Origin: Bacillota bacterium
GTDB taxonomy: Bacteria > Sysuimicrobiota > Sysuimicrobiia > Sysuimicrobiales > Segetimicrobiaceae
Length of the DNA: 61,681 bases
Direction: 5' to 3'
Assembly (NCBI GenBank): GCA_021324295.1
Contig: JAJPJJ010000017.1
Location: 1-61,681 of the forward strand
In this document: positions 18,002 to 46,291 of the stretch, in pieces
How the letters are laid out: every line of letters starts with the position of its first letter
Numbering within the stretch: the stretch's first letter is position 1
The notes under the pieces: generated by a model
The model's database searches: none
The model's input: the letters and a program-made list of their open reading frames with translations, nothing else
Told to the model about the DNA's origin: nothing
Program-made: the position numbers and the translations under genes

Positions 18002-18014
18002 AGGGTTTGGCCGC

Positions 18015-18248: not shown

Positions 18249-18267
18249 GGCCTCACAACTGCATACC

Positions 18268-18492
18268 GTACTGGACGGGTGCTCCCGGCTCGCCGGGAGT
18301 AAAAGGGAAGTCCGGTGCGCGGCCTGCGAGCTGCTCGGCACCTGCGTGATCGAGCGGCGGCGCAGAGGCCGCCAGGCCGGCGCGGTCCCGCCACTGTAAC
18401 GGGGAGCCGATCCGCAACGCCACTGGGTCGACCGGGAAGGCGCGGAGCGGCGAGGATCCGGAGCCAGGAAACCTGCCCGTCCGGTTGCGTAC
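18268..18492 (+). ncRNA. Cobalamin riboswitch
   Basis: The leader carries the conserved cobalamin-aptamer elements in order: AGGGAAGTCCGGTG near 18302, GCCACTGTAACGGGGA near 18390-18405, GGGAAGG near 18433 and the B12 box GAGCCAGGAAACCTGCC at 18461-18477. It lies between a strong promoter and an intrinsic terminator ahead of btuB. When cobalamin is abundant, the expected outcome is reduced expression of the receptor and tonB-like gene. Confidence 0.95.
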
Positions 18493-18541
18493 GGTGACCT
18501 TCGGCCGAAAGGTAAGTACGCCCGCGGTGCTGCGCCGCCTG

Positions 18542-18574
18542 GTCCCCGTGCCTTGCTCGGGGGCTCTTTTGTTT
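18542..18574 (+). terminator. Intrinsic terminator used as riboswitch expression platform
   Basis: A stem of seven pairs (GTCCCCG with CGGGGGC, one G-U pair) with a 9-base loop is followed by TCTTTTGTTT. It lies between the aptamer and the btuB start, so ligand-dependent termination is the likely mechanism. Confidence 0.7.
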
Positions 18575-18603
18575 GCGGGCGCGGCGCCGCGCACGGAGGG
18601 ACC

Positions 18604-20439
18604 ATGATGCCTGGCCGCTCTGCGCGCCGTCGGGCGCTCGCCCCGCTCCTGGTGCTGCTCGTGGCTCTCGGCACGGACGCCCCCGCATGGTCGCAGCCGC
18701 CGGCAGGCCCTCCCACGTTCGAGCTGCCCGAAGTCGAGGTGGCCGGCAAGCGGCCGCAGCTTCCGTCGACCACGCCCGCCTCGGTCAGCGTGATCACCGC
18801 GGCCGAGATCGCGGCGATGGGCGCCTTGACCGTCGCGGACGCGCTGCGCGTGCTGCCGGAGGTGCTCATCAAGGGCACCGGCGGAGCGGGCTCGCTCACG
18901 ACGATCAGCATCCGCGGATCGTCCTCGACGCAGGTGCTGATCCTTCTCGACGGCGTTCCGCTCAACCGGCCGGACCAGCCCACCGTCGATCTGAGCACGC
19001 TGCCGATCCAGGACGTCGACCACATCGAGGTGCTGCGCGGACCGTTCTCGGCGATCTACGGCAGCGCCACCCTCGGAGGCGTGGTCAACATCGTCACGCG
19101 GTCCGCCCCCCGGACCTCGCTCTCCGCCCGCATCGGGTCGTACGGGGAGAGCGTGAACGTCGTGTCGGTCGGCGAGCGGATCGGCGGCCTCACGTACCTG
19201 ATCCAGGGGATCCTGACCGGCAGCACCGGGTTCGCGCCCGACACCGACTACAGCAACTCCACGGTGATGGCAAAGCTCCACTGGGCGACCTCCGACGACG
19301 CCGGCCTGACGCTCACCCTGAACAGGCTCTGGCATGTGACCGGCAGCCCCGGAGCGGCGCCCTTTCAGGACGTCCTCGCGCGGCTCTGGGAGGGGCGGAC
19401 GCTCCTGGACCTCGCCTGGCGCAGCGGCGGCGCCGGCGGGCCCGGCGCGCTGCTCCGCGTGTACCGCCTCGACGACGATGTCGCGTTTGCGAGCCCCGGA
19501 ACGGCGTTTCAATCGGACGACGTCGCGCACCTGTGGGGCGCGCAGGGCCAGCTCGTGCTCGCGCCGCATCCGGCGCATCTTCTGACGCTGGGGGCCGAGT
19601 ACCAGGGCCAAACGATCGCGCACACCGACAGCTCGCCTGCCGCGTTCGCCAACCGGGGCAGCGACCTGGGGCTGTACGTGCAGGACGACTGGCAGATCAC
19701 CCCGCGCGTGCTGCTCTCCACCTGCGTGCGCGAGGACATCTTCGAGCTGTACGGGGCGCAGGTGAGCCCCCGGATCGGCGTGGTCCTGCTGCTGAGCGAC
19801 CGGCTCGTCCTGCGGGCCGCCGCCGGGCGGACGTTTCGGGCACCGAGCTTCGACGAGATCGCGCCGGCGTTCTCGGGGAACCCGAGCCTCCAGCCCGAGA
19901 CGGCGTGGTCGTACGATGCGGGCCTCGAGTACGCGGTGGCGCCCGGGCTGGCGCTGCGCGTGACCGGCTACTACAAGGATGCGACCAACCTGATCACGTC
20001 GTCGCCGCCCCTGTTCACGCCGATGAACGTCGGCCACGCCGTCGTCTCGGGAGGGTCGGTCGAGCTGGCGGGGCAGCTCGCGGACCGCTGGTTCGTTCGT
20101 GCCAGCTACACCGGACAGCGCGCGCGCGACGTCGCTACCGGCCTCGACGTCATCTACGTGCCGCGGTCCCTCGGCGGCCTCGAGATCGACTACCGCGCGG
20201 GGGCGGGGACGACGCTCGCGATGATCCTAAGCTACGTCGGCGACCGATTCGCCGACACGGCCAACACACAGGTGGTCCCGGGCTACTGGCTCACCTCTGT
20301 TGCGGCGACGTGGACGGCCCCGAGCGGCTGGGCCGTGCAGGCCGGTGTGACCAACGTGCTCGACACCGTGTATCAGGAGTCGCTGGGCTTCCCGGAGCCG
20401 GGCAGGAGGTACTTCCTGACGGCAACAAAGACCCTATAG
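18604..20439 (+). CDS. btuB: TonB-dependent outer-membrane vitamin B12 receptor
   Basis: Outer-membrane beta-barrel receptor of 611 residues. A signal peptide (about 1-30) leads to a TonB-box-like ELPEVEVAGKR, then the plug domain with SVSVITAAEIAAMG, VLILLDGVPLN and IEVLRGPFSAIYGSATLGGVVNI. The remaining barrel carries typical YYKDATNLI and FRAPSFDEIAPAFSGNPSLQ segments. The protein ends KTL instead of the usual aromatic residue. GGAGGG lies just ahead of two adjacent ATG codons. Position under a cobalamin riboswitch is strong evidence for cobalamin or cobinamide as ligand. It also proves the host has an outer membrane. Confidence 0.95.
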   Translation: MMPGRSARRRALAPLLVLLVALGTDAPAWSQPPAGPPTFELPEVEVAGKRPQLPSTTPASVSVITAAEIAAMGALTVADALRVLPEVLIKGTGGAGSLTTISIRGSSSTQVLILLDGVPLNRPDQPTVDLSTLPIQDVDHIEVLRGPFSAIYGSATLGGVVNIVTRSAPRTSLSARIGSYGESVNVVSVGERIGGLTYLIQGILTGSTGFAPDTDYSNSTVMAKLHWATSDDAGLTLTLNRLWHVTGSPGAAPFQDVLARLWEGRTLLDLAWRSGGAGGPGALLRVYRLDDDVAFASPGTAFQSDDVAHLWGAQGQLVLAPHPAHLLTLGAEYQGQTIAHTDSSPAAFANRGSDLGLYVQDDWQITPRVLLSTCVREDIFELYGAQVSPRIGVVLLLSDRLVLRAAAGRTFRAPSFDEIAPAFSGNPSLQPETAWSYDAGLEYAVAPGLALRVTGYYKDATNLITSSPPLFTPMNVGHAVVSGGSVELAGQLADRWFVRASYTGQRARDVATGLDVIYVPRSLGGLEIDYRAGAGTTLAMILSYVGDRFADTANTQVVPGYWLTSVAATWTAPSGWAVQAGVTNVLDTVYQESLGFPEPGRRYFLTATKTL

Positions 20440-31427: not shown

Positions 31428-32666
31428 CTAGACTCCGTCCATCCGGCTATCGCGCGACGGTGACCGGTGGGAGCGCGTTCGTCCCTGTGCCGTCGCCTGG
31501 AGGAGCGCGGCCATCCGCGACACGGCCTCTTTCAGCGTCTCCTCCGGCTGCAGGAGCGTCGTGCGGATGTACCCGTCACTGCTGCCGAAGGCCGTCCCGG
31601 GGAAGGCGAGGACGCCCGCCTGCTCGAGGAGCGTCACGCAGAACTCGTACGCGCCGAGCCCCCCCGATGGCACGCGCGCGTAGACGTACAGGGCGCCCCG
31701 AGACCACCGGCCCCCCAGGCCGAGCGGCTCGAATCCATCGAGGAGAACGCGGCGGCGATGGGCATAAGTGCGCCGCATGTCTTCGACGCAGTCTTGCGGG
31801 CCTGTGAGCGCTGCCAGGGCGGCCGCCTGCGAGACCGCGGGCGCGCAGATGGTCAGCGTATGCTTGATCACCTCGACCGCCGCGACGAGCGGGCGCGGAA
31901 CGACCATGTACCCGATGCGCCACCCCGTCATGGCGTAGGTCTTGCTGAACCCGTTGATCATGATCGTCCGGTCGCTGAGGCCTGGGGCGGACGCGACGCT
32001 CATGTGCGGCGGCCCTTCGTAGACGAATCGCTCATAGATATCGTCGGCGATCACCAGCAGGTCGTGCCGCAGCGCGATGTCGGCGAGCGCCGCAATCGCT
32101 TCCGGTGGGATCACAGCGCCCGTGGGGTTCTCCGGGGTCACGACCACGAGGAGCTTTGTGCGTGGCGACACGCGGGCTTCGACATCCGCCGGGTCAACGA
32201 CGAACGCCCGCGCCTCGGTGCACGGCACCGCGACGGGCACCCCACCGGCGAGCCGGATCGCCCTGGAGTAGGACGTGTAGTGCGGATCGGCGAGGAGCAC
32301 CTCATCTCCGGGGTCGAGCAAGGTTTGGAACGCCGTGTATACGGCCTCCTGCGCGCCGGCCGTAAGCACGACCTGGTCGGGGTGTACGGCGAGGCCGTAG
32401 TCGCGGCGGCACTTCTCGGCGATCGCCTCCCGCAGATCTGCACGGCCCTGCCAGTGTGTGTAATGCGTCGCGCCGTCGTCCAGCGCCCGCTTCGCGGCCT
32501 CCAGGATGTGCGGCGGAGTCGGGAGGTCGGGGTCGCCGCGCCCCAGGTTGACGAGGTCACGGCGGCCCTGTGCCATGGCGAGGAGGCGCTCGCGCGGCCC
32601 GGGTTGGCTGCCCGCGGCGCGCCGGGCGGCCTTCGCCATCAGAGCGTTCTCCGAGGGGAGCGTCAC
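31428..32666 (-). CDS. Class I/II PLP aminotransferase
   Basis: Fold-type I aminotransferase of 412 residues, AspC-like. Visible motifs are LGRGDPDLPTPPHI, TAGAQEAVYTAFQTLLDPGD, the PLP-binding VVTPENPTGAVI, ADDIYERFVY and the Schiff-base lysine in INGFSKTYAMTGWRIGY. The terminal Arg for the substrate carboxylate fits YIRTTLLQP. GTG at 32666 has AGGAGG 6 bases upstream. It lies 160 bases downstream of the binding-protein gene. The donor and acceptor are unknown; it may act on amino acids delivered by that importer. Confidence 0.92.
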   Translation of the reverse strand: MTLPSENALMAKAARRAAGSQPGPRERLLAMAQGRRDLVNLGRGDPDLPTPPHILEAAKRALDDGATHYTHWQGRADLREAIAEKCRRDYGLAVHPDQVVLTAGAQEAVYTAFQTLLDPGDEVLLADPHYTSYSRAIRLAGGVPVAVPCTEARAFVVDPADVEARVSPRTKLLVVVTPENPTGAVIPPEAIAALADIALRHDLLVIADDIYERFVYEGPPHMSVASAPGLSDRTIMINGFSKTYAMTGWRIGYMVVPRPLVAAVEVIKHTLTICAPAVSQAAALAALTGPQDCVEDMRRTYAHRRRVLLDGFEPLGLGGRWSRGALYVYARVPSGGLGAYEFCVTLLEQAGVLAFPGTAFGSSDGYIRTTLLQPEETLKEAVSRMAALLQATAQGRTRSHRSPSRDSRMDGV

Positions 32667-32825
32667 GCGTTGCCTCCTATGTCGGCAGGTTTTGGCGCCG
32701 TGGCCCGCAAAGGGTCCCCACGCCGGGCGGTCGACCTTCCTCCGCACGAGCCCGGCGGGGCGTAGATTGCCGCCCCCGCGGGGGCGGGCTCCTCGTGTAC
32801 ATCCCCCGCCGGCGGTGCGCCGCCC

Positions 32826-34421
32826 CTACCGCAGCCAGACCGCTTCCAGCCGCTCGTTGCCGTCCGGCTGCGGGATGAGGCCCTGAACGCGTCGGTTCAT
32901 CAGGATCGGCACCCCCGCGTGGGCGATCGGGAGCAGCGGCAGATCCCGGGCGATGATGTCCTGGATCTCGGCGTAGAGCGTCGCCCGCTGGGCCCGATTC
33001 GTGAGCGCCCGGGCCCGTGCGACGAGCGCGAACACTGTTGGGTTGTTGTATGAGTGGATAGCGCTGTTAGGTTCGTGTCCGCCGAAGTAAAAGCTGAACC
33101 AATCGTCGGGGTCGCCCGTGTCACCGATCCACCCATACATCCACAGCGGGAACTTGTTCAAGCGGTCTTTCCGGTAGGCGGCCCAGTCCTCGGTCATCAG
33201 ATGCACGCGGATGCCGGCCTTACCGAGGTCGTTTGCGATGGCGGTCGCGATCTCCTTCCCGTCGGGGAAGTAGGGCCGGCTGACCGGCAGATACCAGAAT
33301 TCGAGAGAGACCCCGTTGGGATATCCGGCGTCGGCCAGCAGCGCGCGCGCCGCCTCCGGGCTGTAGGCGTACACGGGCACGTCGCGTGAGCGTCCCCACA
33401 TCGCCGGCGGCATGATCTGGTCGGCCACCTCGCCATACTCGCCGTACAGGGCGTGCACGATCGCCGGTTTGTCGATCGCGCGCGCAATGGCTTCGCGGAT
33501 CCGGCGATCTCTGAAGAGAGGGTCTTGCAGGTTGAACTGGAGCCAGCCGGTGCTGAACGCCGGCCGCGGTCCGACCCGCAGCAACGGATCGACCTGCGCG
33601 GCGCGGACGTTGTCGGGATTCGGGAGCTCCATTACCTGGATTTCGCCCGACTTGAGCGCCAGGTATCGCGCGGCGTTGTCCTTCATGATGCGGTAGACGA
33701 CCCGCGGGATCCTGGGAAGGCCCTTGCGGAAGTATCCAGGGCTGGCCTGGAGCACGATATGATCGTCCCGCACCCACTCCACGAAGGCGTATGGGCCGGT
33801 GCCGACGGGGTGCGCTCCCACCCCTGTCGCCCCGTATCGTCTGAGGGATGCCGGACTGGCGAAGTTGAAGGCGGGAATCGCCAGGTCACTCAGCAGCGGC
33901 CCGAGCGGCGTTTTGAACACGAGCCGCAACGTGTAGGCATCCGGGGCCCGCGCGGCCTCGAAGTCTTTGGAGAGGAAATCGTGCCAGTAGGCGAAGTCCA
34001 CTCCATGACCGTGGTAGGGGTTTCGCGCATCGGCCCAACGATCGATGTTGAACTTCGCCGCCTGGGCCGTCCACGGCGTGCCGTCGTGGAACGTCACCCC
34101 TCGTCGCAGCGTGAACGTCCAAGTGCGGCCGTCCGGCGATACGGACCAGCTTGTGGCCAGGTCCGGCTCGATCGCCGTGCCTCCGGCCTTCATTCGCACG
34201 AGGGTATTGAAGATCTGCGTCACGACGGGCCCGGCCTCCCCATTGTACGTGGCCGGATAATCCAAGCTGTTGGGATCGCCGCCGAGCCCCCATACGAGGG
34301 TCGGCGCCGCGCCGGCCGCCCCGGCCTGAATGATCGGGGAGCACAACAGACCGGCCAGCGTGACGCCGGCGGCGACGAGGATCGCTGGTGAGTGCTTGCT
34401 TGGCCTCCGTTGCCTGCTCAC
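32826..34421 (-). CDS. Oligopeptide/opine-type ABC substrate-binding protein (SBP_bac_5)
   Basis: Periplasmic receptor of about 531 residues. An N-terminal basic stretch and hydrophobic segment (AILVAAGVTLAGLLCSPII) form the signal; the Cys might suit lipidation, but no clear lipobox is present. Family motifs include PDLATSWSVSPDGRTWTFTL, LRRGVTFHDGTPWTA, GTGPYAFVEW and IREAIARAIDKPAIV. A GTG at 34430 is an alternative start. It sits between a DegT-family gene and the class I aminotransferase, without permease genes next to it, so it may share the DppBC-type permeases at 48-50 kb. Confidence 0.92.
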   Translation of the reverse strand: MSRQRRPSKHSPAILVAAGVTLAGLLCSPIIQAGAAGAAPTLVWGLGGDPNSLDYPATYNGEAGPVVTQIFNTLVRMKAGGTAIEPDLATSWSVSPDGRTWTFTLRRGVTFHDGTPWTAQAAKFNIDRWADARNPYHGHGVDFAYWHDFLSKDFEAARAPDAYTLRLVFKTPLGPLLSDLAIPAFNFASPASLRRYGATGVGAHPVGTGPYAFVEWVRDDHIVLQASPGYFRKGLPRIPRVVYRIMKDNAARYLALKSGEIQVMELPNPDNVRAAQVDPLLRVGPRPAFSTGWLQFNLQDPLFRDRRIREAIARAIDKPAIVHALYGEYGEVADQIMPPAMWGRSRDVPVYAYSPEAARALLADAGYPNGVSLEFWYLPVSRPYFPDGKEIATAIANDLGKAGIRVHLMTEDWAAYRKDRLNKFPLWMYGWIGDTGDPDDWFSFYFGGHEPNSAIHSYNNPTVFALVARARALTNRAQRATLYAEIQDIIARDLPLLPIAHAGVPILMNRRVQGLIPQPDGNERLEAVWLR

Positions 34422-34449
34422 GCTCCTCACCCCTCCGCCCGCTGCGCAG

Positions 34450-35649
34450 TCAGGTTCGGTAGAACTCCGAGATCTTACCCACCACGTACTCGACATCCCG
34501 GTCGGCGATCCAGGGGTGGATCGGCAGGGTCAGGATCTCGCTCACCACGCGCGATGCGATCGGATACGTGCCCGCGGGCGTTGGATGGTGCTGCCGGTAG
34601 TACCGCATCTCCGGGAGGAGCTGAGGGTAATGGATCAGCGCCTCCACGCCGGCGCCGACCAGGAAGTCCCGGAGCGCATCGCGCCGCGGGGCGCGAATCA
34701 CGTAGTGAAGGAACGCGTGCTTCGTCCACCGGTGGACGACCGGCGGACGGACTGGCAACCCGGCCTCTTCGATGGACCGTGTGTACAGCCGCGCGACCTC
34801 GCGGCGCCGCTCGTTCCACTCCTCGAGGTGCCGCAGGCCGATCCGTCCGATCGCGCACGGGATCTCGTCCAGCTGGAGGTTCAGCCCCGGCCGGATCGAG
34901 TCCCGATCGAGCGGGGACATCCCCGACATCGGCGACTCCGCGAAGGGAATCTCCTTGAAGAAGGCCGGAGGCAGCGGCAGCCGCCTCCACCCGTGCCGTG
35001 AGATCGCCGTGGCGTCCTCGTAGATGGCCGTGGAATCCGTGGCGATCGCGCCGCCCGTGGCGCACATCGAGATATTCTTGCTGCCGAGGCTGAACACGGC
35101 GATGTCGCCGAAGGTCCCAAGCCTCCTGCCTCTGTACTCGCCGCCCAACGCATGGGCGCAGATCTCGATGACCCGGATGTTGTGCGGCCGCGTCGCACGC
35201 AGGATCGCGTCCATGTCGGCCGCGTGGCCGTACATGTGCGTGACGACCACCGCCTTGGTACGTGGAGAGATCCGTGCCGCGATCGCGTCGGCCGTGACAT
35301 TGGCCGTGCCCTCGTCGACGTCGCAGAACAGCGGCGTTGCGCCAAGGAAGGCGGGTACCTCCGCGCTGGACACGTAGACGTTCGCCGGGACGATCACATC
35401 GTCGCCGGGCCCGATCCCGAGTGCCATCGCTGCCACAAGCAGCGCCGACGTCCCGGAGTTAACGGTCACGGCATGCCGCACGCCCACGTACGCGGCCAGC
35501 TCTTGCTCGAACAGGTAGGCTTGCTCCCCGCCGTAGTACACGCCGCGCTCGAGTTGCGCGAGGACCGCCTCGCGGATCTCGCCGGTGATGTGCACCCGCT
35601 TGGACTGAACCGTGCGTCGCGCGTCCGTCTTCGTTGGCTCATCCGTCAC
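34450..35649 (-). CDS. DegT/DnrJ/EryC1 family protein A, catalytic Asp replaced
   Basis: Fold-type I PLP protein of 399 residues in the sugar-aminotransferase family. VTVNSGTSALLVAAMALGIG, GDDVIVPANVYVSS, VTHMYGHAADMD and the Schiff-base lysine context FSLGSKNISMC are conserved. The Asp that normally contacts the PLP ring nitrogen (in VIEDxAHALG) is Ile here (VIEICAHALGGEY), and the later NYR motif is NLQ (GLNLQLDEI). It may therefore be altered in activity or no longer an aminotransferase. It resembles protein D at 42-43 kb more than the others. It heads the leftward unit with the binding protein and class I aminotransferase. Confidence 0.88.
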   Translation of the reverse strand: MTDEPTKTDARRTVQSKRVHITGEIREAVLAQLERGVYYGGEQAYLFEQELAAYVGVRHAVTVNSGTSALLVAAMALGIGPGDDVIVPANVYVSSAEVPAFLGATPLFCDVDEGTANVTADAIAARISPRTKAVVVTHMYGHAADMDAILRATRPHNIRVIEICAHALGGEYRGRRLGTFGDIAVFSLGSKNISMCATGGAIATDSTAIYEDATAISRHGWRRLPLPPAFFKEIPFAESPMSGMSPLDRDSIRPGLNLQLDEIPCAIGRIGLRHLEEWNERRREVARLYTRSIEEAGLPVRPPVVHRWTKHAFLHYVIRAPRRDALRDFLVGAGVEALIHYPQLLPEMRYYRQHHPTPAGTYPIASRVVSEILTLPIHPWIADRDVEYVVGKISEFYRT

Positions 35650-35990
35650 AGGAGTCCCCCGCCGCTACGTCCTGCGGACCAACTGCGCACGCGCCCGCTT
35701 CGTGGGCCGCCGGCGGCCACGATGTCTTGCTCGGTGAGGCGGGCGGACGCGTCGGGCACCAGAGAGACGCGAGTTAGCCACAGCTCGCGCTGGAACGGCG
35801 CACCGGCCGGCACGCTTGGCCAGATGACGAAACGTCATTCCGTATTCACCATACGATCGCACGGTTCCTGCTACGTCGTTCTAGTCTTGGAGCGAAAGTG
35901 GAAGGGGATTTCATTTTCGTCGGCGAATCCCACCCCGGTGGCCTGACCCGCGGGACCGATCGATGGACCCCGATCGACCGGGAGGAGCAC
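35650..35990. promoter_or_regulatory. Divergent regulatory region between DegT A and iclR
   Basis: This 341-base region drives a leftward DegT unit and the rightward iclR unit. It contains a perfect 15-bp palindrome ATGACG-AAA-CGTCAT (35824-35838), of the size of IclR operators, and an AT-rich motif at 35909-35925 that recurs upstream of the transporter operon. No further gene is supported. Confidence 0.6.
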
Positions 35991-36758
35991 ATGGCCAAGT
36001 CCGACTCCATCAAGACCGTGAAGCGCTCCATCGATATCCTCAACGTGCTCGCCGAGGATGGCCATCAATTGGGCGTCATCGAGCTCAGCAAGCGGCTCAA
36101 GACGAGCCAGAGCACAGTCTACCGCATCCTGTCCACCCTCGTGGCCGAAGGCTATGTCGCTCAGGATGCTCGGACCGAGAAGTACGGATTGGGCCTCCAG
36201 GGCATCATTCTCGCCGGCGCCGCGCTCAACCAGCTCGAGATCCGCAAGCAGGCGATCTCGCTGCTCGAGCGGATCTCGTCGGCGACGGGCTGCAACGCGA
36301 ATCTGGGGATCTTCCACCGGGGCGAGGTGATGTACGTGGCCCGCATCGATGGGCCGAAGAGCGCCCGGATGTACACACCGATCGGCCGGCGGGCACCGGT
36401 CCACGCGACCGCCCTCGGCAAGGCGATCCTCGCCTTCCTGCCCGCCGAGGAGGCGGATGCGATCATCCGGAGCCGCGAACTCGCGGCCTGCACTCCGCAC
36501 ACCATCACCGACCCTTCGGCGCTTGCGGAGGAGCTTCGCCGGACCCGTGATCGCGGCTACGCGGTCGACCAGGAAGAGTTCATCTTGGGCATCCGGTGCG
36601 TGGCCGTGCCCGTGCGGGGCCACTCGGGGACGATCGCGGGCGCCATGAGCGTGTCGGGGTCCGTGTTCCAGGTGCGAGCGGAGGACGCCGAGCACCTCGC
36701 GGGCGTGCTTCAGGACGCGGCCTACGAGCTATCTGGCCGGCTTGGATACATCGCCTGA
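35991..36758 (+). CDS. IclR-family transcriptional regulator
   Basis: A 255-residue regulator. The winged helix-turn-helix is at about 8-60 (SIKTVKRSIDILNVLAEDG, LSKRLKTSQSTVYRILSTL, AEGYVAQD). The effector-binding domain includes YTPIGRRAPVHATALGKAIL and DQEEFILGIRCVAVPVRGH, typical of the family. GGAGGAGCAC precedes the ATG. It is 6 bases from the asparaginase-fold gene and is the only dedicated regulator in the 30-kb catabolic island, so it is the best candidate for its control. IclR proteins bind 15-bp palindromes, one of which lies in its own upstream region. Confidence 0.95.
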   Translation: MAKSDSIKTVKRSIDILNVLAEDGHQLGVIELSKRLKTSQSTVYRILSTLVAEGYVAQDARTEKYGLGLQGIILAGAALNQLEIRKQAISLLERISSATGCNANLGIFHRGEVMYVARIDGPKSARMYTPIGRRAPVHATALGKAILAFLPAEEADAIIRSRELAACTPHTITDPSALAEELRRTRDRGYAVDQEEFILGIRCVAVPVRGHSGTIAGAMSVSGSVFQVRAEDAEHLAGVLQDAAYELSGRLGYIA

Positions 36759-36764
36759 CGGCCG

Positions 36765-37745
36765 GTGGCGCTCCCGAGAGTCCGCATCATCGCCACGGGC
36801 GGCACCATCGCGGGCGCACGGCTGCCCTCGGGCACCGTGGCGCCGGGGCTCGCACCCAACGAGCTGCTCGCCCGCATCCCGGCCGCAGCCTCCTACGCCG
36901 AGTGCGACGTCGACCCGTGGCTCCAGGTCGCCAGCAGCGCGATCGGGTTTCGCGAGATGCTGCAGCTCTCCCAGCGGGTGACGGCAGCGTTGGCCGACCG
37001 AGACGTGGCCGGCATCGTCATCACGCACGGGACGGCGACGCTTGAGCACACCGCGTATTTTCTCGACGTCACGCTGAATGCCGAGCGGCCCGTCGTGCTC
37101 ACAGGCGCGATGCGCAACCCGACACTGCCGAGCGACGACGGACCGCTGAACCTGTTGAATGCTATTCAAGTCGCCGCGTGCGAGCGGTCCCGCGGCCTCG
37201 GAGTCCTCGTCGTCATGAACGGCACGATCCATTGCGCGAAGGACGTGACGAAGTGCCACTCGGCGAGCACGGCGGCCTTTCAGTCGCCCGAGTTTGGGCC
37301 ACTCGGCGCCATCGACGAAGACTATGTGTTCTACGCCCGGCGGCCGTTTCGTCGGATTCCGGGCATCATGCCGCCGGCCATCACGGCGCGCGTGGAACGG
37401 ATCCCGTTCGTCGCCGATCCGAGCGACGTGCTGCTCCGCGCGGCGCTCGACGCCCGTGTCGACGGGCTGGTCGTGGAATCGGGACGGCTCAGCCGGCCAC
37501 ACTTCGACCTGCTGAAAGGGGCGGTCGATCGCGGCACCGCCGTCGTGATCGCCAACCCGTATCACGCCGGCCGGCTGCATCGAAATACGTACCGGCACGA
37601 GGGCGCGGAAGCGCATCTGCTGTCGGCGGGCATGATCTTCTCGGGCACGCCGGGCGTGAAGGCACGCGTGAAGCTGACGGTTCTGTTGAGCGCCGGCCTG
37701 AGCCACGCGCGGATCCGTGAGCTGTTTCACGCGGAATGGCGGTGA
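36765..37745 (+). CDS. L-asparaginase-fold amidohydrolase with altered active site
   Basis: A 326-residue member of the bacterial asparaginase/glutaminase family. The first catalytic Thr is in IIATGGTIAG, and the Lys of the second triad is in KDVTKCHSASTAAFQSPEFG. The second Thr motif, usually HGTDT, reads ITHGTATLEHTAYFLD: the Asp that binds the substrate amino group is Ala. This suggests another amide substrate without a free alpha-amino group, or loss of activity. GTG starts 6 bases after iclR with no strong Shine-Dalgarno, consistent with coupled translation. The end overlaps the convergent DegT B gene by 19 bases. Confidence 0.88.
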   Translation: MALPRVRIIATGGTIAGARLPSGTVAPGLAPNELLARIPAAASYAECDVDPWLQVASSAIGFREMLQLSQRVTAALADRDVAGIVITHGTATLEHTAYFLDVTLNAERPVVLTGAMRNPTLPSDDGPLNLLNAIQVAACERSRGLGVLVVMNGTIHCAKDVTKCHSASTAAFQSPEFGPLGAIDEDYVFYARRPFRRIPGIMPPAITARVERIPFVADPSDVLLRAALDARVDGLVVESGRLSRPHFDLLKGAVDRGTAVVIANPYHAGRLHRNTYRHEGAEAHLLSAGMIFSGTPGVKARVKLTVLLSAGLSHARIRELFHAEWR

Positions 37746-38869
37746 TAATGGCACACCTCTGTGAGCAGGTCGCCCAGCCGGTCCATATCGTCCGTGCCAT
37801 AGCGTTCGTCGACGGGCAGGCTCAACAGCTCGGCGCGTAGCCGGTCGGCCACAGGGCAGCCCGCCGCGGGCATCGCCGCCGGCCGCGGCCAGTGGTGGAC
37901 GGCCTCGACGCCCCGCGCGGCCAGGGCGCTGCGCACCTGGTCGCGTGCCACCACCCTCACGGGGAGGACCATCGGCACGACTCCGGGATCGATCCGCGAG
38001 AACAGCGGCGTGATGCCCGGGCGCCCCCGGACGCGCTCGAGCAGCCGCGCGGCGTTCCGGCGGCGGGCCGCGGCCGCCGCCACGATATCGAAGCGCTCGA
38101 TGATACGCCGTGAAGCGGGGCTCCACGGCGCGATCTCCACCGGCCCCGCGCGCCAGCTCCGCAGCGCCCCCACAGCGCGCGGCACCGCGCCACGGTGGTC
38201 CGGCATGAAGCCCGCCCACACCATCGTCGCGGTCCTGGCGATCCCGTGCGCCCGGTAGCACCATCCGGATGCGCGCGGTGCCGCGCGCGGGAGGGGGAGG
38301 GCCTCTCGGAACGACAGGCCGCACCCGTCGGGGCACGGAAGCAGCTTGCGGTAGCTCGCGAGCCGGGCGTCGGCCCAGGTGCCGAGGGGCGATCCATCGA
38401 CACGCGTAAACAGCGCGTGCGTCAGGTCCTCGATCCAGAACACGTTCCCGTCCGCGGGACTCCTGCCACGCAACCACGCCTGCACCGCGCCCGGCTGCGG
38501 CCAGCCGAAGTAGTGAATCACGATCCCCGCGCGCACCCCTGGGCCGGTGCGCCGTGCCAGATCGTCGAGATCTACGGAGAGATCCTCCTTCACGGCGTAG
38601 AACTCCGGCGCCAGGCCGGCCGCGACGAAGGGGACCACGACGCTCTCGCACGCATACGCGGGAAGCAAAACCCGGTCGCCCGGGCCCCAGCCCATCGCCC
38701 GGCAGAGCCATAGCAGCGCGGCGCGTCCAAGCGCGAACTGCCGGTGTCCGACGCCCGGGAGAAGATCCTCTACCCGCCGGCGCGGCGGCGCCGTCCACAG
38801 CGCGGGAGGGATGGCACCGTACTCTACGGCGCACCACCCGCCGTCGCCCGCCTGTCGCGCACGCGCCAC
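37727..38869 (-). CDS. Divergent DegT/DnrJ-like PLP protein B
   Basis: A 380-residue fold-type I PLP protein, the most divergent of the five. FALGRAALLWLCRAMGWGPG replaces the usual SGTxAL region, VLLPAYACESVVVPF follows, the Asp motif is kept (FWIEDLTHALF) and the Schiff-base lysine lies in ASYRKLLPCPDGCGLSF. The C-terminus LSLPVDERYGTDDMDRLGDL is typical of the family. It overlaps the asparaginase-fold gene and precedes DegT C by 15 bases in the genome. It could be a sugar aminotransferase or a related lyase. The start at 38869 is uncertain. Confidence 0.78.
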   Translation of the reverse strand: MARARQAGDGGWCAVEYGAIPPALWTAPPRRRVEDLLPGVGHRQFALGRAALLWLCRAMGWGPGDRVLLPAYACESVVVPFVAAGLAPEFYAVKEDLSVDLDDLARRTGPGVRAGIVIHYFGWPQPGAVQAWLRGRSPADGNVFWIEDLTHALFTRVDGSPLGTWADARLASYRKLLPCPDGCGLSFREALPLPRAAPRASGWCYRAHGIARTATMVWAGFMPDHRGAVPRAVGALRSWRAGPVEIAPWSPASRRIIERFDIVAAAAARRRNAARLLERVRGRPGITPLFSRIDPGVVPMVLPVRVVARDQVRSALAARGVEAVHHWPRPAAMPAAGCPVADRLRAELLSLPVDERYGTDDMDRLGDLLTEVCHYHRHSA

Positions 38870-38884
38870 GGACCCGCCGATCGG

Positions 38885-40069
38885 CTACGCCGTCACGGAG
38901 GCCTGCTGCCGAAAGAACGCCGCCAGGTGGTCCACGACGTACGCCACGTCGTCCTCGGTCATTTGGGGATACAGCGGCAGGGTCAGGATCTCGCGGGCGA
39001 GCCGTTCGGTCACCGGCAACCCTCCTTCGCGCCAGCCCAGTTGCTCGCGGTAGGGGACGTCGAGGTGAATCGGCGTCGGATAGTGAACCGTGGTCGCGAT
39101 GCCATGGCGCCCCAGGTACCGGCGGAGCGCCGCGCGGTTCGGCACGCGGACCTCGAAGCGCACATAGGAGTGATACGCCCACGGTCGCTCGCCGGGGAGA
39201 GCGATCGGGAGGTCGTGTGCCGCGATGAGCGTTCGGTACAGCGCGGCCCGCCGGCGGCGCTGCTCGATCCACCCCGGCAGCCGGCGCAACTGGACGCGCG
39301 CCACGGCGGAGAGGATCTCGGATTGGCGGTAGTTGAACCCGATCTCGTCGTGCGTAACGGGAGCTCCCTCGTCGGCGTGGCCGCGATGATAGTGCTCCCC
39401 GCGCCCGTGGTTGGCCAGATTGAAGATCCGCCGCACGCGCATCTCATCGAACGAGGCGACCGCGCCGCCTTCGCCCGCGCATGTCATCGCCTTGTTCTGG
39501 ACGAAGCTGTAGCACCCCATGTCGCCCAGCGTCCCCGCGGCCCGGCCCTTGTATCGGGCGCCGATCGCCTGGCACGCGTCTTCGATCACGACCAGCCGGT
39601 GCCGGCGCGCCAGCTCCAGGATCGGGTCGAGATCCGCGGGATGTCCCGCCGTATGCACGGGCATGATCCCGCGGGTCCGGGGGGTGATCGCGGCGGCGGC
39701 CGCCGCGGGGTCGATGTTGTACGTATCCGGCTCGACGTCGACCGGCACGGGCGTCGCGCCGACGAGTGAGACGCAGTGAGCGACGCTGGCGAACGTGTTG
39801 GCCGGAATCACCACCTCGTCTCCCGGCCCAACGCCGTAGGCGATCCACGCCAGGTGCATCGCCGCGGTGCCGCTGGAGAGGTTGGCGACGTGCGGCCGGC
39901 GGCCGTCGCGTCCTGCCAGGAACGCGCCGAGCTCTTCCTCGAGGGCTTTCCCTTCCGATGCCTCATCCGGGGACGTACGGATATAGTGCCCCGAGTCGAG
40001 CACCCTGCAGGCGGCGTCCTTCATCTCCTGGTCGACGACCGGCCGGAAGGCCACGATCCGACTGGCCAT
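38885..40069 (-). CDS. DegT/DnrJ/EryC1 aminotransferase C
   Basis: A 394-residue PLP aminotransferase with all expected residues: NLSSGTAAMHLAWIAYGVG, PGDEVVIPANTFAS, DVEPDTYN, the Asp in VVIEDACQAIGARYKG, the lysine in YSFVQNKAMTCAGEGG and the Asn/Arg motif GFNYRQSEILSAVARVQL. It closely resembles protein E at 45-46 kb (shared EPDTYN, SFVQNK and GFNYRQ motifs), so the two look like paralogues. Such enzymes usually transaminate keto-sugars or ketocyclitols with glutamate or glutamine. The gene is leftward, just upstream of DegT B, and diverges from the dehydrogenase. Confidence 0.92.
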   Translation of the reverse strand: MASRIVAFRPVVDQEMKDAACRVLDSGHYIRTSPDEASEGKALEEELGAFLAGRDGRRPHVANLSSGTAAMHLAWIAYGVGPGDEVVIPANTFASVAHCVSLVGATPVPVDVEPDTYNIDPAAAAAAITPRTRGIMPVHTAGHPADLDPILELARRHRLVVIEDACQAIGARYKGRAAGTLGDMGCYSFVQNKAMTCAGEGGAVASFDEMRVRRIFNLANHGRGEHYHRGHADEGAPVTHDEIGFNYRQSEILSAVARVQLRRLPGWIEQRRRRAALYRTLIAAHDLPIALPGERPWAYHSYVRFEVRVPNRAALRRYLGRHGIATTVHYPTPIHLDVPYREQLGWREGGLPVTERLAREILTLPLYPQMTEDDVAYVVDHLAAFFRQQASVTA

Positions 40070-40244
40070 GAGCTCCTCCTCTCCCTTCTCGTCCGGTGCG
40101 CTGAGGAGGGTTCCGTCGCTCCGGACCGAATCCCTGCAGGGTTTGAAACGATGCTGCGCTTACCTGGCCGACCGGGCGCAAATCCACACATCAGGTTCAC
40201 AGCGGCTCGCGCATCCGTGGGCCTCCTCGGGGAAGGGTGACCAG

Positions 40245-41243
40245 GTGACCGACGCACGCTGGTACTGCATCCGCACCGAGTCCCGCAGCCTGCCGTCCTA
40301 CGACATCAGGATCGAACGAGAGATCCTCGAGCCAAAGGGCGTCCGTGTCGAACCGGTCGACATGGACGACGAATCGGCGTTCGACCGGGTCGCCCCCAGC
40401 GTGGACGCCGTGCTCCACTCGCGAGGCGTGCTCGACGCCGCCCGTATCGCGCGCCTCCGCCGGTGCCGGATCATCGCCCACTACGGGACGGGGGTGGACC
40501 GCGTCGACGTGTCGGCGGCCACCGACCGCGGAATCTGGGTCACCAACGGACCACGATACGCCGTGGAGGAGGTGTCCTCGCACGCGATCGCGCTGCTCCT
40601 GGCCGTCGCGCGAAAGATCGTCGCGGCCGACCGGGCCGTGCGCGCGGGCGCCTGGCACATCAAGCCGATCGTTCCGCTCCACCGCATCGCCGGACGCACG
40701 CTCGGCCTGCTGGGGTTCGGCAACATCGCCCGCGCCACCGGGCGCAAGGCGCGGGCGCTCGGGCTCCAGATCATCGCCTACGATCCGTACCTCGATGCGC
40801 AGGTCTTCCGCGACGAGGGCGTCCGGTCGGCCGATCTGCAGACGTGCCTCTCCGAGGCCGACATCGTGTCGGTCCATCTGCCTCTCACCGATGAGACGCG
40901 TGGCATCATCGACCGCGACGCGCTGGGCCTGATGAAGCCGGGCGCGCTGCTGATCAACACGTCGCGTGGCGCGGTGGTGGACGAGGGGGCGCTCGTGGAG
41001 GCGCTGCGGTCCGGCCGGTTGGCCGGCGCGGGCCTCGACGTGTTCGCTCAAGAACCGCTTCCGACGAATCATCCGCTGCTGGCGTTGCCGAACGTGACGG
41101 TGTCCGGGCACATCGCGTTCTACTCGGAGGAGTCGATCCAGCAGATGCAGCGGGATGCGGCGGAGCAGGTGCTCGCGGCGCTCGAAGGACGGCTGCCCGC
41201 ATTCCTTGTGAACCGGCAGGTCCTGGAGCGGCCGCCCCGCTGA
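40245..41243 (+). CDS. D-isomer-specific 2-hydroxyacid dehydrogenase
   Basis: NAD-dependent dehydrogenase of 332 residues related to SerA-type and hydroxypyruvate/phosphonate dehydrogenases. The Rossmann motif is LGLLGFGNIARATGRKARAL, the catalytic Arg is in LINTSRGAVVDEGAL, the Glu in GLDVFAQEPLP and the His in TVSGHIAFYSEES. GTG at 40245 has GGGGAAGGGTG upstream; the longer frame to 40068 is not supported. It could reduce the 2-oxo acid made by transamination. No ACT domain is present, so it is not a regulated SerA. It is followed 36 bases later by the PIG-L/GalB-like gene. Confidence 0.93.
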   Translation: MTDARWYCIRTESRSLPSYDIRIEREILEPKGVRVEPVDMDDESAFDRVAPSVDAVLHSRGVLDAARIARLRRCRIIAHYGTGVDRVDVSAATDRGIWVTNGPRYAVEEVSSHAIALLLAVARKIVAADRAVRAGAWHIKPIVPLHRIAGRTLGLLGFGNIARATGRKARALGLQIIAYDPYLDAQVFRDEGVRSADLQTCLSEADIVSVHLPLTDETRGIIDRDALGLMKPGALLINTSRGAVVDEGALVEALRSGRLAGAGLDVFAQEPLPTNHPLLALPNVTVSGHIAFYSEESIQQMQRDAAEQVLAALEGRLPAFLVNRQVLERPPR

Positions 41244-41279
41244 TGCCACGCGCCTGGACGCCACGTGGGAGGGATCGCC

Positions 41280-42014
41280 ATGGCACACGCCGATCGCATC
41301 TTATGCATCAGCGCCCACGCCGCCGACTTCTGCGTGCGGGCGGGCGGGACGCTGGCCCGGTACGCCGCCTCCGGCGCGGACGTCCGCGTCGTCGTGCTGA
41401 GCCCCGGGGCGCGGGGAGAGTCCAACGAGTTCTGGAAAGCGCGCCAGGGGCGGACCACCGAGGAGGAAGTAGCCGAGGTGCGCCGCACGGAGGCGCGAAA
41501 GGCCGCCGAGATTCTCGGCGTCGAGGTCGTATTCTACGACTATCGCGACCAGCCCCTCACGTTCGACTACGAGCGCTTGATGAGGCTCGTGCGCGAAATC
41601 CGAAGCTTCAGGCCGCGCGTCATCATCACGCATCCCGCCAGGGAACCGTACAACCCGGACCACACCGCGGCGTACCAGGCGACCATGGACGCGGCGTACT
41701 ACGCCGGCCTGGCCGGGGTCGAGCCTGACCTGCCGGTGCTCGCGCCGATGCAGATCTTCGCGTGCGAGCCCACGCAACCGCTCACCGAGATGACAGGCTT
41801 CGTGCCCGAGTACTTCATCGATATCACCGACGTCATGGACACGAAGATGCGGGCCACCGCGGAGTTCCGGGCACAGCCGTACCACGTCGAGCGCTACCGC
41901 ACGCGCTCGCAGCAGCGCGGCACGCAGGCGGCCTATGTCGCGGGGGACCCGGCGATCAAGTTCGCCGAGGCGTTTCAGCGGCTCACGCCGTGGACCGGAC
42001 GGCTGTTCCCGTAG
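41280..42014 (+). CDS. PIG-L family hydratase, GalB-like
   Basis: A 244-residue zinc protein of the LmbE/PIG-L fold. The usual deacetylase motif AHPDDE is replaced by SAHAADFCVRAGGTLA, a variant that I associate with GalB-type 4-oxalomesaconate hydratases rather than GlcNAc deacetylases. SPGARGESNEFW, the second metal motif HPAREPYNPDHTAAY and FACEPTQPLTEMTGFVPEYF agree. It may hydrate an unsaturated oxo-dicarboxylic acid from ring cleavage. GGGAGGG precedes the ATG. It is probably co-transcribed with the dehydrogenase and ends at a strong bidirectional hairpin. Confidence 0.85.
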   Translation: MAHADRILCISAHAADFCVRAGGTLARYAASGADVRVVVLSPGARGESNEFWKARQGRTTEEEVAEVRRTEARKAAEILGVEVVFYDYRDQPLTFDYERLMRLVREIRSFRPRVIITHPAREPYNPDHTAAYQATMDAAYYAGLAGVEPDLPVLAPMQIFACEPTQPLTEMTGFVPEYFIDITDVMDTKMRATAEFRAQPYHVERYRTRSQQRGTQAAYVAGDPAIKFAEAFQRLTPWTGRLFP

Positions 42015-42031: not shown

Positions 42032-42062
42032 GCGCTCCCCCGGCAGGCCGCCGGGGGAGCGC
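42032..42062. terminator. 13-bp bidirectional terminator-like hairpin
   Basis: GCGCTCCCCCGGC (42032-42044), a 5-base loop and GCCGGGGGAGCGC (42050-42062) form a perfect stem between two convergent genes, touching the stop codon of DegT D. No U-run is present, as in other hairpins of this window. Confidence 0.75.
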
Positions 42063-43210
42063 TACGCGACCGCGCGCCGCTCCCTAAAGAACGCGATGAC
42101 CGCGTCCGCCACGCGCTCCTGCATCTCCTCCGTCATGTGCGGCCCCACCGGCAGCGAAAGCGTCTCGCGGCACAACCGCTCCGCGACGGGGAACTGGCCC
42201 TCGCGCGTGCCGTACCGCGCCTTCACCGGCTCCAGCAGGTGGAGCGGCCTCGGATAGTACACGCCCGTCTCGATGTCCCGGGCCCGCAGGAACTCAGCCA
42301 GCGCGTCCCGCTTCGGCGTCCAGATCGCATAGTGCAGATACGACGGACGGGCCCACGGCTGCTCAGGGGGAAGGCGGAACGGCAGGTCGGCGTCGCGAAA
42401 GCGCGTCGTATAGTAGGCGGCGGCCTTCCGCCGGTGCGCCGTGAACCCGCCAAGGAGGCGCAACTGGATCCGCCCGAGGGCGGCGCCCATCTCGGACATG
42501 TGCATGTTGTAGCCGATCCATCGTTGGTCGTACCAGGAGGCGTCTGTGCGGCGGACGAAGCTGATCTTCTCGTCGCGGAGCCGCCCCTGATCTCGCAGGC
42601 TGGAGACGCCCTCGGCGAGCCCATGATCGTCGGTGACGATGGCGCCGCCCGGGCTGAAGGTGGTGATCATCTTTCCAGAAAAGCTGAAGAGCCCCGCATC
42701 GCCGAGCCCGCCGGCGGGGCGCCCCTTGTACTCCGCACCCAGCGCGTGGGCGGCGTCCTCCAGCACAAACGCGTCCCGCTTCTTCGTCGCCTCCACGATC
42801 GGGTCCATGTCGCACGGGAAGCCGTACATGTGGATCGGGACGACCGCGCGGGTCTGCGCGGTCATCGCCGCCCCGATGGCCGGCGGTGATACGTTGCCGG
42901 TGTCGGCGTCCGCTTCGACGAAAATGGGCGTCGCGCCGAGCTTCACGACCGCGGCCAGCACGCCGATGTACGCGTTGGCGGCCATGACGACCTCGTCCCC
43001 CGGTCCGATCCCCCGCGTGTCCAGCGCCAGCATGGCGGCGGACGTCCCGGAGTTGGCGGTGACCCCGTACCGCTTCCCACACAGGTGCGCCAGCTCGACC
43101 TCGAAGCGCTCGGTCTCCTCGCCTCCGAACGCCTTGCCCGTCTCCAGCATCTCCAGGGCCTTCCGCCTCATCTCGTCGTTCAGGATCGGAGCGCGATACG
43201 GGATATGCAC
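42062..43210 (-). CDS. DegT/DnrJ/EryC1 aminotransferase D
   Basis: A 382-residue PLP aminotransferase. GVTANSGTSAAMLALDTRGI, GDEVVMAANAYIGV, VPIHMYGFPCDMDPI, the Asp in AFVLEDAAHALGAEYKG and the lysine in FSFSGKMITTFSPGG are present; the usual NYR reads NMH (GYNMHMSEMGAALG). It shares the NSGTSA and HMYG features with protein A but keeps the catalytic Asp. It lies at the end of a leftward unit after the amidase and its small partner. Its product could be an amino sugar, aminocyclitol or, in reverse, the corresponding ketone. Confidence 0.92.
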   Translation of the reverse strand: MHIPYRAPILNDEMRRKALEMLETGKAFGGEETERFEVELAHLCGKRYGVTANSGTSAAMLALDTRGIGPGDEVVMAANAYIGVLAAVVKLGATPIFVEADADTGNVSPPAIGAAMTAQTRAVVPIHMYGFPCDMDPIVEATKKRDAFVLEDAAHALGAEYKGRPAGGLGDAGLFSFSGKMITTFSPGGAIVTDDHGLAEGVSSLRDQGRLRDEKISFVRRTDASWYDQRWIGYNMHMSEMGAALGRIQLRLLGGFTAHRRKAAAYYTTRFRDADLPFRLPPEQPWARPSYLHYAIWTPKRDALAEFLRARDIETGVYYPRPLHLLEPVKARYGTREGQFPVAERLCRETLSLPVGPHMTEEMQERVADAVIAFFRERRAVA

Positions 43211-43477: not shown

Positions 43478-44866
43478 CTAGGCCGCCTCCAGCGACTCCG
43501 GACGCCGCGTATGCCAGGAAGTCGACTGCTCGTACGCGTGGCCGATCCGGAACAGCGTTGCCTCGTCGAAGAACCGTCCCGCGAGCTGCATCCCGATCGG
43601 GAGCCCGGCCGCGGTGAAGCCGCAAGGCACCGTGAGCGCGGGATGCCCGGACAGGTTGAAATGGCGCGTGCCCCAGCTCGTGTCGGGCGGCCCCGACAGC
43701 TGCGTTTCGACGGGAAACGCCACGCCCGGTAGTGTCGGCGTGACGATGGCGTGCACCCGCTCCATGGCTCGCGCGACCTGCCGCGCCCAGGCGGCGCGAA
43801 TGCGCACCGCCTCCTCGTACTCCCCCGACGTGTAGCAGGCGCCCGCGACGATCCGCCGCCGGGTGCGCGGGCCGTAATCCATGGCGCGGGTGCGCAGCCG
43901 CTGAGCGTGCCAGCCGTAGGCCTCGGCCATGATGAGGATCGAGCCGGCCCCCGCCAGCTCCCCCGAGAGCGGCAGCTCCACCGGCTCCAACCGGGCGCCC
44001 TCGGCCTCGAGGTGCCGGAGCGCCGCTCGGAGGGCCGCGTCCACCTCGGCCTCGAGACCCTCGTAGAAGTGCTGCCGCGGCACGCCCAGCACGAGCCCGC
44101 GGAGCCCGCCCTCGAGGCCGTCGGTGAAGTCGGGCACCGGCGCGCGGGCGCTCGTTGGATCCCGCGGATCGTATCCGGCCATCGCGTTCAACAGCAACGC
44201 GCAATCCGCCACGGTGCGCGCCATCGGCCCGACGTGATCCATGCTCCAGCTCAGCGGAATGAGCCCGTACCGGCTGACGCGCCCGTAGGTGGGCTTGACG
44301 CCGACGACGCCGCAGAGGCTCGCGGGCACGCGAATCGACCCACCCGTATCCGACCCCGTCGCGGCAACAGCCAGGCCCGCGGCCAGCGCGTTGGCCGAGC
44401 CGCCGCTGGAGCCGCCGGCGTAGCGGCTCGGGTCCCACGGATTCCGGGCGACGCCGAAGAGCTCCATGGTACCGCAGGCAAACTCCGTGGTGTTGGTCTT
44501 TCCGAGGAGGATCATGCCGGCCTCGGCCAGCCGCCGCACGTGCGTCGCGTCGCGGTCGGGTATGTGCTCGATGAGAAGACGCGAGTGCGCCGTCGTGCGG
44601 ACACCCCTGGTGAGGCTGACATCCTTGTGCGCGATCGGGAGCCCGTGCAGGGGGCCGCGCCGCCGCCCGCGCACGATCTCGCGCTCGACCCGGCGGGCCT
44701 CGGCAAGCGCGGCATCCCCGCAGACCGTGATGTAGCTGCAGAGGCGCTCGTTGTGCCGGCTGATGCGGTCGAGCACCGCGGCGACGATGTCCACGGGTGA
44801 CACGCGCCGCTCATCGAGCAGGCGGCTGAGCGCAGTCAGCGACAGGTAGGGGAGGTCGTTCTGCAC
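43478..44866 (-). CDS. Amidase signature enzyme (AtzE/GatA-like)
   Basis: A 462-residue amidase. The catalytic Lys is in HGLPIAHKDVSLTRG, the cis-Ser in RYAGGSSGGSANALAAGLAV and the nucleophile Ser in ATGSDTGGSIRVPA. The C-terminal part has VPCGFTAAGLPIGMQLAGRF and FDEATLFRIGHAYEQ. I start at the GTG at 44866 because GAGGGAGAGG precedes it; a GTG seven codons upstream is also open. Coupled to the small GatC-like gene it resembles the AtzE-AtzG (1-carboxybiuret hydrolase) arrangement, which would suit a ureide or amide pathway. Confidence 0.92.
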   Translation of the reverse strand: MQNDLPYLSLTALSRLLDERRVSPVDIVAAVLDRISRHNERLCSYITVCGDAALAEARRVEREIVRGRRRGPLHGLPIAHKDVSLTRGVRTTAHSRLLIEHIPDRDATHVRRLAEAGMILLGKTNTTEFACGTMELFGVARNPWDPSRYAGGSSGGSANALAAGLAVAATGSDTGGSIRVPASLCGVVGVKPTYGRVSRYGLIPLSWSMDHVGPMARTVADCALLLNAMAGYDPRDPTSARAPVPDFTDGLEGGLRGLVLGVPRQHFYEGLEAEVDAALRAALRHLEAEGARLEPVELPLSGELAGAGSILIMAEAYGWHAQRLRTRAMDYGPRTRRRIVAGACYTSGEYEEAVRIRAAWARQVARAMERVHAIVTPTLPGVAFPVETQLSGPPDTSWGTRHFNLSGHPALTVPCGFTAAGLPIGMQLAGRFFDEATLFRIGHAYEQSTSWHTRRPESLEAA

Positions 44867-44974
44867 GGCTGCCCTCTCCCTCGTCACGGCGGCGCCGCCG
44901 TGACGGCGGACGTCACGGAACGCAGCGATCCGGTCCGGCGTGGCCGGCTGTGCGCCGGGCCACCGCGGTCTCCG

Positions 44975-46144
44975 CTACGCACGGTAGAACTGCCGGATCA
45001 CGCCGACGGTGTAGCGGATATCCTCGGCCTCCAGGGTCTGGTAGCACGGAAGCGTCAGGATCGTCTGGGCCAGCCGCTCGGTCACCGGGAACGTGCCTTC
45101 CGGCGCGCCGCAATACGGCTGGTAGGCGTGGTCCAGGTGAATGGGCGTCCCATATTCGACCATCGCGTGCACGCCGTGCGCCTCCAGGTGCGCGCGGAGC
45201 GCGTCCCGTTGCGGCGTTTGCACGACGTAGCGCAGCATGCTGTGCGTGGCGTAGGGCCTCGTCGTGGGAAGCCTCAGGTCGTGCCGGAACTGGCTCAGCA
45301 GCGCGGCGTAGAGGGCCGCGTGCTCGCGGCGGCGCGCGTTCCACTGGTCGAGGTACCGGAGCTGGATGCGGCCGATGGCCGACAGCACCTCGTTCTGCCG
45401 GTAGTTGAACCCCACCGTCTCGATCTGCTGGGCACGGTAGACGTGGTAGGCCTTGGCGCCATCGAACCACCGGCGGCCCCGCCCGTGGTTGGAGAGCATC
45501 ATCGCCAGCTCCCACACCCGCGTGTCTGCGGTGACCAGCATGCCCCCTTCGCCGCCCACCGATATGCACTTGTTCTGCACGAATGAGAAGCACCCGGCGT
45601 CCCCGATGGTCCCGAGGCGTTTCCCCTTGTACGCCGCGCCGGCGGCGTGGCAGACGTCCTCGACGACCTTGAGCTCGTGGCGCCGCGCGATCTCCATCAG
45701 CGGGTCCATGTCGACCGCGTGCCCGTTCATGTGCACGGGGAGGATCGCCTTCGTCCGCGGCGTAATCGCGGCCTCGACGAGGCTGACGTTCATGTTGTAG
45801 GTGTCCGGTTCAACGTCCACCAGGACCGGCTTCGCCCTGCACAGGATGATGACGTCGGCCACCGAGGAGAAGGTGTTGGGAACGGTGATGACCTCGTCGC
45901 CGGGGCGGACACCCACGGCGAGGAGCGCGATGTGCAGCGCCGCCGTGCCGCTCGACACGTTGACGGCGTGCGGCGCGCCGAGGTAGGCGCAGAACTCGTC
46001 CTCGAACCGCTTGCCCTCCGAATCCTCCAGGGGGAAGCTGCGGATGTACTTCCCGCTGCGGAGGATGCGGGTGGCCGCGTCGATCATCTCGTCCGTCATC
46101 ACGGGCCTGTAGCGGATCTCCCTGACCGGCGCCTCGCGGGCCAT
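44975..46144 (-). CDS. DegT/DnrJ/EryC1 aminotransferase E
   Basis: A 389-residue PLP aminotransferase with full motifs: VNVSSGTAALHIALLAVGV, PGDEVITVPNTFSS, DVEPDTYNMNV, Asp in KVVEDVCHAAGAAYKG, lysine in FSFVQNKCISVGGEGG and GFNYRQNEVLSAIGRIQL. It is the apparent paralogue of protein C. GGGAGGGGACG precedes the ATG at 46144. It lies 108 bases upstream of the amidase in the same leftward direction and diverges from the transporter operon. Confidence 0.93.
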   Translation of the reverse strand: MAREAPVREIRYRPVMTDEMIDAATRILRSGKYIRSFPLEDSEGKRFEDEFCAYLGAPHAVNVSSGTAALHIALLAVGVRPGDEVITVPNTFSSVADVIILCRAKPVLVDVEPDTYNMNVSLVEAAITPRTKAILPVHMNGHAVDMDPLMEIARRHELKVVEDVCHAAGAAYKGKRLGTIGDAGCFSFVQNKCISVGGEGGMLVTADTRVWELAMMLSNHGRGRRWFDGAKAYHVYRAQQIETVGFNYRQNEVLSAIGRIQLRYLDQWNARRREHAALYAALLSQFRHDLRLPTTRPYATHSMLRYVVQTPQRDALRAHLEAHGVHAMVEYGTPIHLDHAYQPYCGAPEGTFPVTERLAQTILTLPCYQTLEAEDIRYTVGVIRQFYRA

Positions 46145-46291
46145 CGTCCCCTCCCGCCGCCCGTCCACGAACGGCAGCGGCCGAGACGGGCCGCCGGGGA
46201 CGACCACGCCGGCCTACGTCGGCCGATGGACGAACGAGCAAGGAGGATCTTCGACGAAAAGAGAAACAATCCCTCTACTATCGGCGCCTAG

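Follow-up and report, generated by a model that had tools for sequence, protein, structure and literature searches.

DegT-family sugar aminotransferases (ArnB, WbpE, GDP-perosamine synthase, QdtB, DesV; 7b0d) are the natural reference for the protein analyzed here, DegT A, with which they share the fold, the Schiff-base lysine, the phosphate-binding SGT, an aromatic stacking residue, a His/Gln facing O3′ and the Asn of the NxR motif. The cofactor contacts are described for Spr1654, a DegT-family member, as follows. Asp170 lies 2.8 and 3.2 Å from PLP N1, His173 is near O3′, Tyr84 sits on the ring, Ser194 and Thr59 contact the phosphate, and Lys199 forms the Schiff base; Glu205, just before a GG motif, is reported to be conserved throughout the sugar aminotransferases (PMC5936713). 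The N1 aspartate is held to let PLP act as the full electron sink that transamination needs. In an alignment of the aspartate aminotransferase superfamily, the Asp and the Lys are reported to be invariant (PMC5986058).

Removal of N1 support is not equally costly for all PLP enzymes. Replacing PLP with deaza-PLP costs aspartate aminotransferase about 10^9-fold, OASS 260-fold and alanine racemase 700-fold; that is, transaminases suffer far more than racemases and β-eliminases, and in some non-transaminase PLP enzymes the N1 partner is Ser, Cys or Arg (PMC6424897). OASS, tryptophan synthase and serine racemase (Ser) and alanine racemase (Arg), enzymes of fold types II and III, have no acidic N1 partner, do not fully protonate N1 and carry out chemistry other than transamination, which is where they resemble the reading of DegT A given below; they differ in fold, and their N1 still has a polar residue as its partner. 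Within fold type I, the D168V mutant of Aeromonas jandaei L-threonine aldolase puts an aliphatic residue at the same N1 position and keeps the Lys, as DegT A does. Its kcat/Km for allo-threonine falls about 2500-fold; in the D168 mutants the internal aldimine is not formed, whereas external aldimine formation and aldol synthesis persist (PMC5986058). These mutants are engineered and belong to another family, whereas the DegT A state is natural and conserved. A precedent for leaving transamination is GenB2, an aminoglycoside epimerase with the fold-type I aminotransferase fold; it too belongs to another family, epimerizes by means of an N-terminal Cys and reportedly shares the crucial PLP-anchoring residues with its aminotransferase relatives (PMC11420954).

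DegT A is encoded on the minus strand at 34450–35649 of the window, i.e., the entire 61,681-nucleotide stretch of DNA analyzed, and is a 399-residue protein with a GTG start. Pfam, PDB relatives, AlphaFold and Foldseek agree in placing it in the DegT/DnrJ/EryC1/StrS family of fold-type I proteins. PF01041 (DegT_DnrJ_EryC1) matches residues 21–393, a whole-length match, at 308 bits against a cut-off of 19.8. The AlphaFold model, a monomer without PLP, has a pLDDT of 94.7 and a pTM of 0.93 when built from a 90-row alignment, compared to a pLDDT of 45.6 with three sequences. Foldseek TMt values for this model are 0.91 for 7b0d_A, 0.93 for ArnB and 0.93–0.95 for WbpE, with GDP-perosamine synthase and DesV also matched and an overall range of 0.90–0.95. 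Apart from the N-terminus, confidence is lowest at about residues 230–250, the site of extra residues in the DegT A clade (clade A). None of the NCBIfam cut-offs for named sugar-transaminase equivalogs (PseC, ArnB, WecE, DesI) is exceeded; the PseC score is 209.5 against 423.5, and the ArnB score is 203 against 631.

The residue that sets DegT A apart is Ile163. Translation of 34450–35649 gives ATC at codon 163 (35161–35163, minus strand), in the local reading R159 V I E I163 C A H A L G G E Y172. The first-pass annotation had reported that the Asp contacting the PLP ring nitrogen was missing from a motif at 35140–35180. The residue is indeed within that span, though the boundaries are off by a few bases, as the full motif, VIEICAHALGGEY, occupies 35134–35172. 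The segment vieicaha aligns to vIEDACQA of 7b0d, lIEDAAQA of 3frk and IIEDCAQA of 7n63; each of these close PDB relatives has Asp at the aligned position. Position 163 is the equivalent of Spr1654 Asp170 (PMC5936713), and the absence of Asp there holds up. Conversion of GAC or GAT to ATC takes at least two base changes. An alignment slip in which Glu162 poses as the missing Asp was considered and rejected: E162 lines up with the ED-motif Glu in 87 of 90 rows, and the spacing to His166 is preserved. A sequencing or assembly error as the source of Ile163 was rejected as well, residue and codon being common to three species.

The rest of the cofactor site is little changed. In the alignment, Spr1654 Asp170, His173, Tyr84, Ser194, Thr59 and Lys199 correspond to DegT A Ile163, His166, Tyr92, Ser187, Thr67 and Lys191, so that among these contacts the N1 partner alone has changed. 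His166 (35152–35154, minus strand) is the equivalent of the residue that hydrogen bonds PLP O3′. Lys191 (35077–35079, minus strand), the Schiff-base lysine of FSLGSKN, is kept as first reported, and is invariant in all 90 alignment rows. All three clade A members keep Lys191, Ser65–Thr67, Tyr92, His138, His166, Ser187, Asn257, His340 and Tyr341. Conservation of at least 93% in 87 other DegT proteins marks 26 columns as near-invariant. Of these, position 163 alone is replaced throughout clade A, and another three are changed in a single member each. The clade A cofactor site is thus a conserved one with a single consistent, drastic change.

Other departures from the sugar aminotransferases carry less weight. 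Of the residues used to recognize that group, DegT A has the Schiff-base Lys and lacks both the N1 Asp and the Glu before GG. The equivalent of Spr1654 Glu205, which we place at column 198, is Thr in DegT A, and Glu is likewise missing there from clades D, E and F, which bear the Asp. The change of NYR to NLQ (Asn257-Leu258-Gln259-Leu260; 34870–34881, minus strand), also raised by the first-pass annotation, is literally correct. It does not merit extra weight: Asn257 is kept, only the Arg being replaced by Gln, and Arg makes up no more than about 70% of its column, with His in clade D and Thr in clade E, both of which keep the Asp. DegT A also has extra residues at about 225–250. Thr137 and Cys164 are fixed in clade A, and position 137 is usually hydrophobic in relatives. 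Column comparison with the 87 other DegT proteins found no acidic residue peculiar to clade A that could compensate, and DegT A yielded no residue that would mark it as an epimerase, eliminase or aldolase.

Clade A was sought in 43 genomes of the host phylum, all of one order, and in 343 genomes outside it. It is present in three, as follows: the window's own genome (G000), G009 of the same family, whose orthologue is 76% identical to DegT A, and G017 of another family of the same order, whose orthologue is 66% identical. All three have the IEICAH motif with ATC for Ile. Pairwise dN/dS is 0.17–0.29 (NG86; over 100 synonymous differences separate each pair), indicating purifying selection. No orthologue was found in the 343 genomes sampled outside the phylum, in plasmids or, under a stricter cut, in 44 genomes from two further groups; none was found in genome contigs or viral contigs with short peptide patterns, which can miss relatives. 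Across 185 distinct DegT proteins, the N1 column contains 179 Asp, 3 Ile, 2 Asn and 1 Val, and all six Asp-less proteins keep the Schiff-base Lys; the sample is rich in the host phylum, so its 3% Asp-less fraction is not a world frequency. DegT relatives from viral contigs all have Asp in this column.

The DegT proteins of the cluster around DegT A and of the related clusters form one radiation specific to the host phylum (43 rows, support 100/98), and all six Asp-less proteins fall within it. The clades are distinguished by their signatures: A, IEICAH/GSKN; B, EDVCHA/QNKC; C, EDACQA/QNKA; D, EDAAHA/SGKM; E, EDLAHA/ARKG; and F, EDAAHA/SNKG. Clade A, which has full support and a long stem of 0.79 changes per site, joins clade E (98/83 in one tree, 93/89 in a second). 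An Asn-type pair is sister to clade F, and the Val-type protein joins clade D. Parsimony counts three losses of the N1 Asp; a tree that places the Ile and Val types together survives the AU test (p-AU 0.31), so there may have been two losses or three. Most likely, DegT A arose by duplication within this phylum-specific radiation, which has seen repeated loss of the N1 Asp.

The gene neighborhood is unlike that of a sugar aminotransferase in that no nucleotide-sugar genes were seen among the annotated genes of the cluster. The DegT A stop lies 19 nt before the plausible GTG start (34430) of an SBP_bac_5 (oligopeptide-type) solute-binding protein gene (32826–34430, minus strand), downstream of which is a class I/II aminotransferase gene (31428–32747, minus strand). 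Divergent from DegT A is an IclR-family regulator gene (35898–36758, plus strand), followed by genes for an asparaginase-family protein (36765–37745, plus strand), a very divergent DegT-like protein (37727–38869, minus strand; 44 bits, EDLTHA and SYRK kept), a clade C paralogue (38885–40069, minus strand; EDACQA/QNKA), a D-2-hydroxyacid dehydrogenase (40068–41243, plus strand), a PIG-L family deacetylase (41265–42014, plus strand), a clade D paralogue (42062–43210, minus strand; EDAAHA/SGKM, NMH), an amidase (43478–44887, minus strand; Pfam Amidase, 382 bits) and a clade B paralogue (44975–46207, minus strand; EDVCHA/QNKC). The Asp that had been reported for the paralogues is present in clades B, C and D. 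No counterpart of the very divergent DegT-like protein was seen in the related clusters examined, and a promoter and terminator scan of 34300–36100 found nothing.

The wider cluster, including DegT B, C and D, is conserved in most genomes of the family and also holds a caprolactamase-like hydantoinase A/B pair and oligopeptide-type permeases. It looks like a system that imports and processes a compound rich in amides and amines. The linkage of DegT A to the SBP_bac_5 gene is found in G000, G009 and G017, though the position of this module in the cluster varies. Five of the six Asp-less DegT genes (the three Ile types, the Val type and one Asn type) adjoin family-5 solute-binding protein genes; the Asn type of G013 does not. 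Taken as a whole, this lineage-specific cluster (31428–53676, and L103–L113 elsewhere) contains several DegT paralogues with differing active-site signatures.

What, then, does DegT A do? Because related species keep the same replacement along with every other cofactor-binding residue examined, DegT A is probably functional, in a role other than ordinary amino-group transfer. The deaza-PLP and D168 mutant data make a shift away from transamination plausible, much as the first-pass annotation had expected. Given that the Lys and the phosphate site are kept while Ile occupies N1, the same data, those for D168V included, make an efficient transaminase unlikely. The leading reading, to which we give a probability of about 0.45, is a conserved PLP enzyme with weaker electron-sink chemistry. 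DegT A would bind PLP via Lys191. Without the Asp, the pyridine nitrogen would not be held protonated, and the unprotonated ring would make for an inefficient transaminase. The reaction would be one for which a weaker electron sink suffices, such as epimerization or racemization, elimination or dehydration, or aldol-type cleavage, and the substrate may be an amine-bearing compound imported by the linked family-5 binding protein and an ABC transporter. The absence of the internal aldimine in the aldolase D168 mutants suggests that PLP binding itself may be weak. A PLP-binding poor transaminase or a non-catalytic subunit fits best overall, and a regulator is unlikely. MocR/GabR regulators, in which a fold-type I domain binds PLP without ordinary catalysis, offer a likeness; the regulatory protein suggested by the first-pass annotation is disfavored, since the aminotransferase fold accounts for the 399 residues and Pfam finds no DNA-binding domain, the aminotransferase match beginning at residue 21.

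Ranked second, and less likely, is a non-catalytic or accessory paralogue that serves either as a structural or regulatory subunit, perhaps by forming a heterodimer with an Asp-bearing DegT of the cluster, or as a ligand-binding protein. DegT active sites form between subunits (PMC5936713), and related clusters have tandem, overlapping DegT genes, such as F, D and A end to end in L103 of G009. Clade A also evolves somewhat faster than its neighbors: in one alignment, G000–G009 identity is 73% for clade A versus 79% for clade D and 83% for clade B. In non-catalytic subunits such as LCB1 of serine palmitoyltransferase, however, the Lys is usually gone, and Lys191 and the remaining PLP site are kept in all three members; moreover, the constant neighbor of DegT A is the solute-binding protein gene rather than a fixed DegT gene. 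Less probable again, and third in rank, is an ordinary sugar-type aminotransferase that tolerates Ile, with N1 protonated or hydrogen bonded by water or by a residue such as Thr137 or Cys164. The ordinary fold and mostly ordinary cofactor residues suit this idea, as do the fixation of Thr137 in clade A and the use of Ser, Cys or Arg at N1 by some non-transaminase PLP enzymes (PMC6424897). Yet transamination is the activity for which loss of N1 support costs most (PMC6424897), Asp and Lys are invariant in the superfamily alignment cited above (PMC5986058), and clade A has gained no acidic residue of its own. A decaying pseudogene or assembly error is very improbable: the three genomes are fragmented drafts with contamination up to about 5%, but separate species share residue, codon and open frames, dN/dS is well below 1, and the active-site motifs are intact.

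The reading of DegT A as a weak-sink PLP enzyme may, tentatively, be extended to the other DegTs of this phylum's transporter-linked clusters. On this bolder view, at least two, probably three, lineages independently dropped the N1 Asp and kept the Lys, which would give natural fold-type I PLP enzymes with an unprotonated ring and a catalytic mode new to the DegT family, of the epimerase, eliminase or aldolase type. With a natural, conserved fold-type I set carrying Ile, Val or Asn, the N1 Asp rule could be tested with no need for engineered mutants, and DegT chemistry other than transamination might come to light. The gene for the Val-type protein (G017 L161:3129–4295, LIEVLAHA..GSKM) comes immediately after one for a family-5 solute-binding protein. 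The Asn types, with the Lys kept, are at G017 L160:8233–9336 (VIENGCHA..SHKL) and G013 L107:12443–13732 (MIENCSHA..SHKH), and in the latter the Asn of NxR is also changed, to Lys. In G009, adjacent DegT genes overlap or nearly so at L103:11746–14143 (B-E) and 15704–19269 (F-D-A), an arrangement that suggests translational coupling and possible heteromers.
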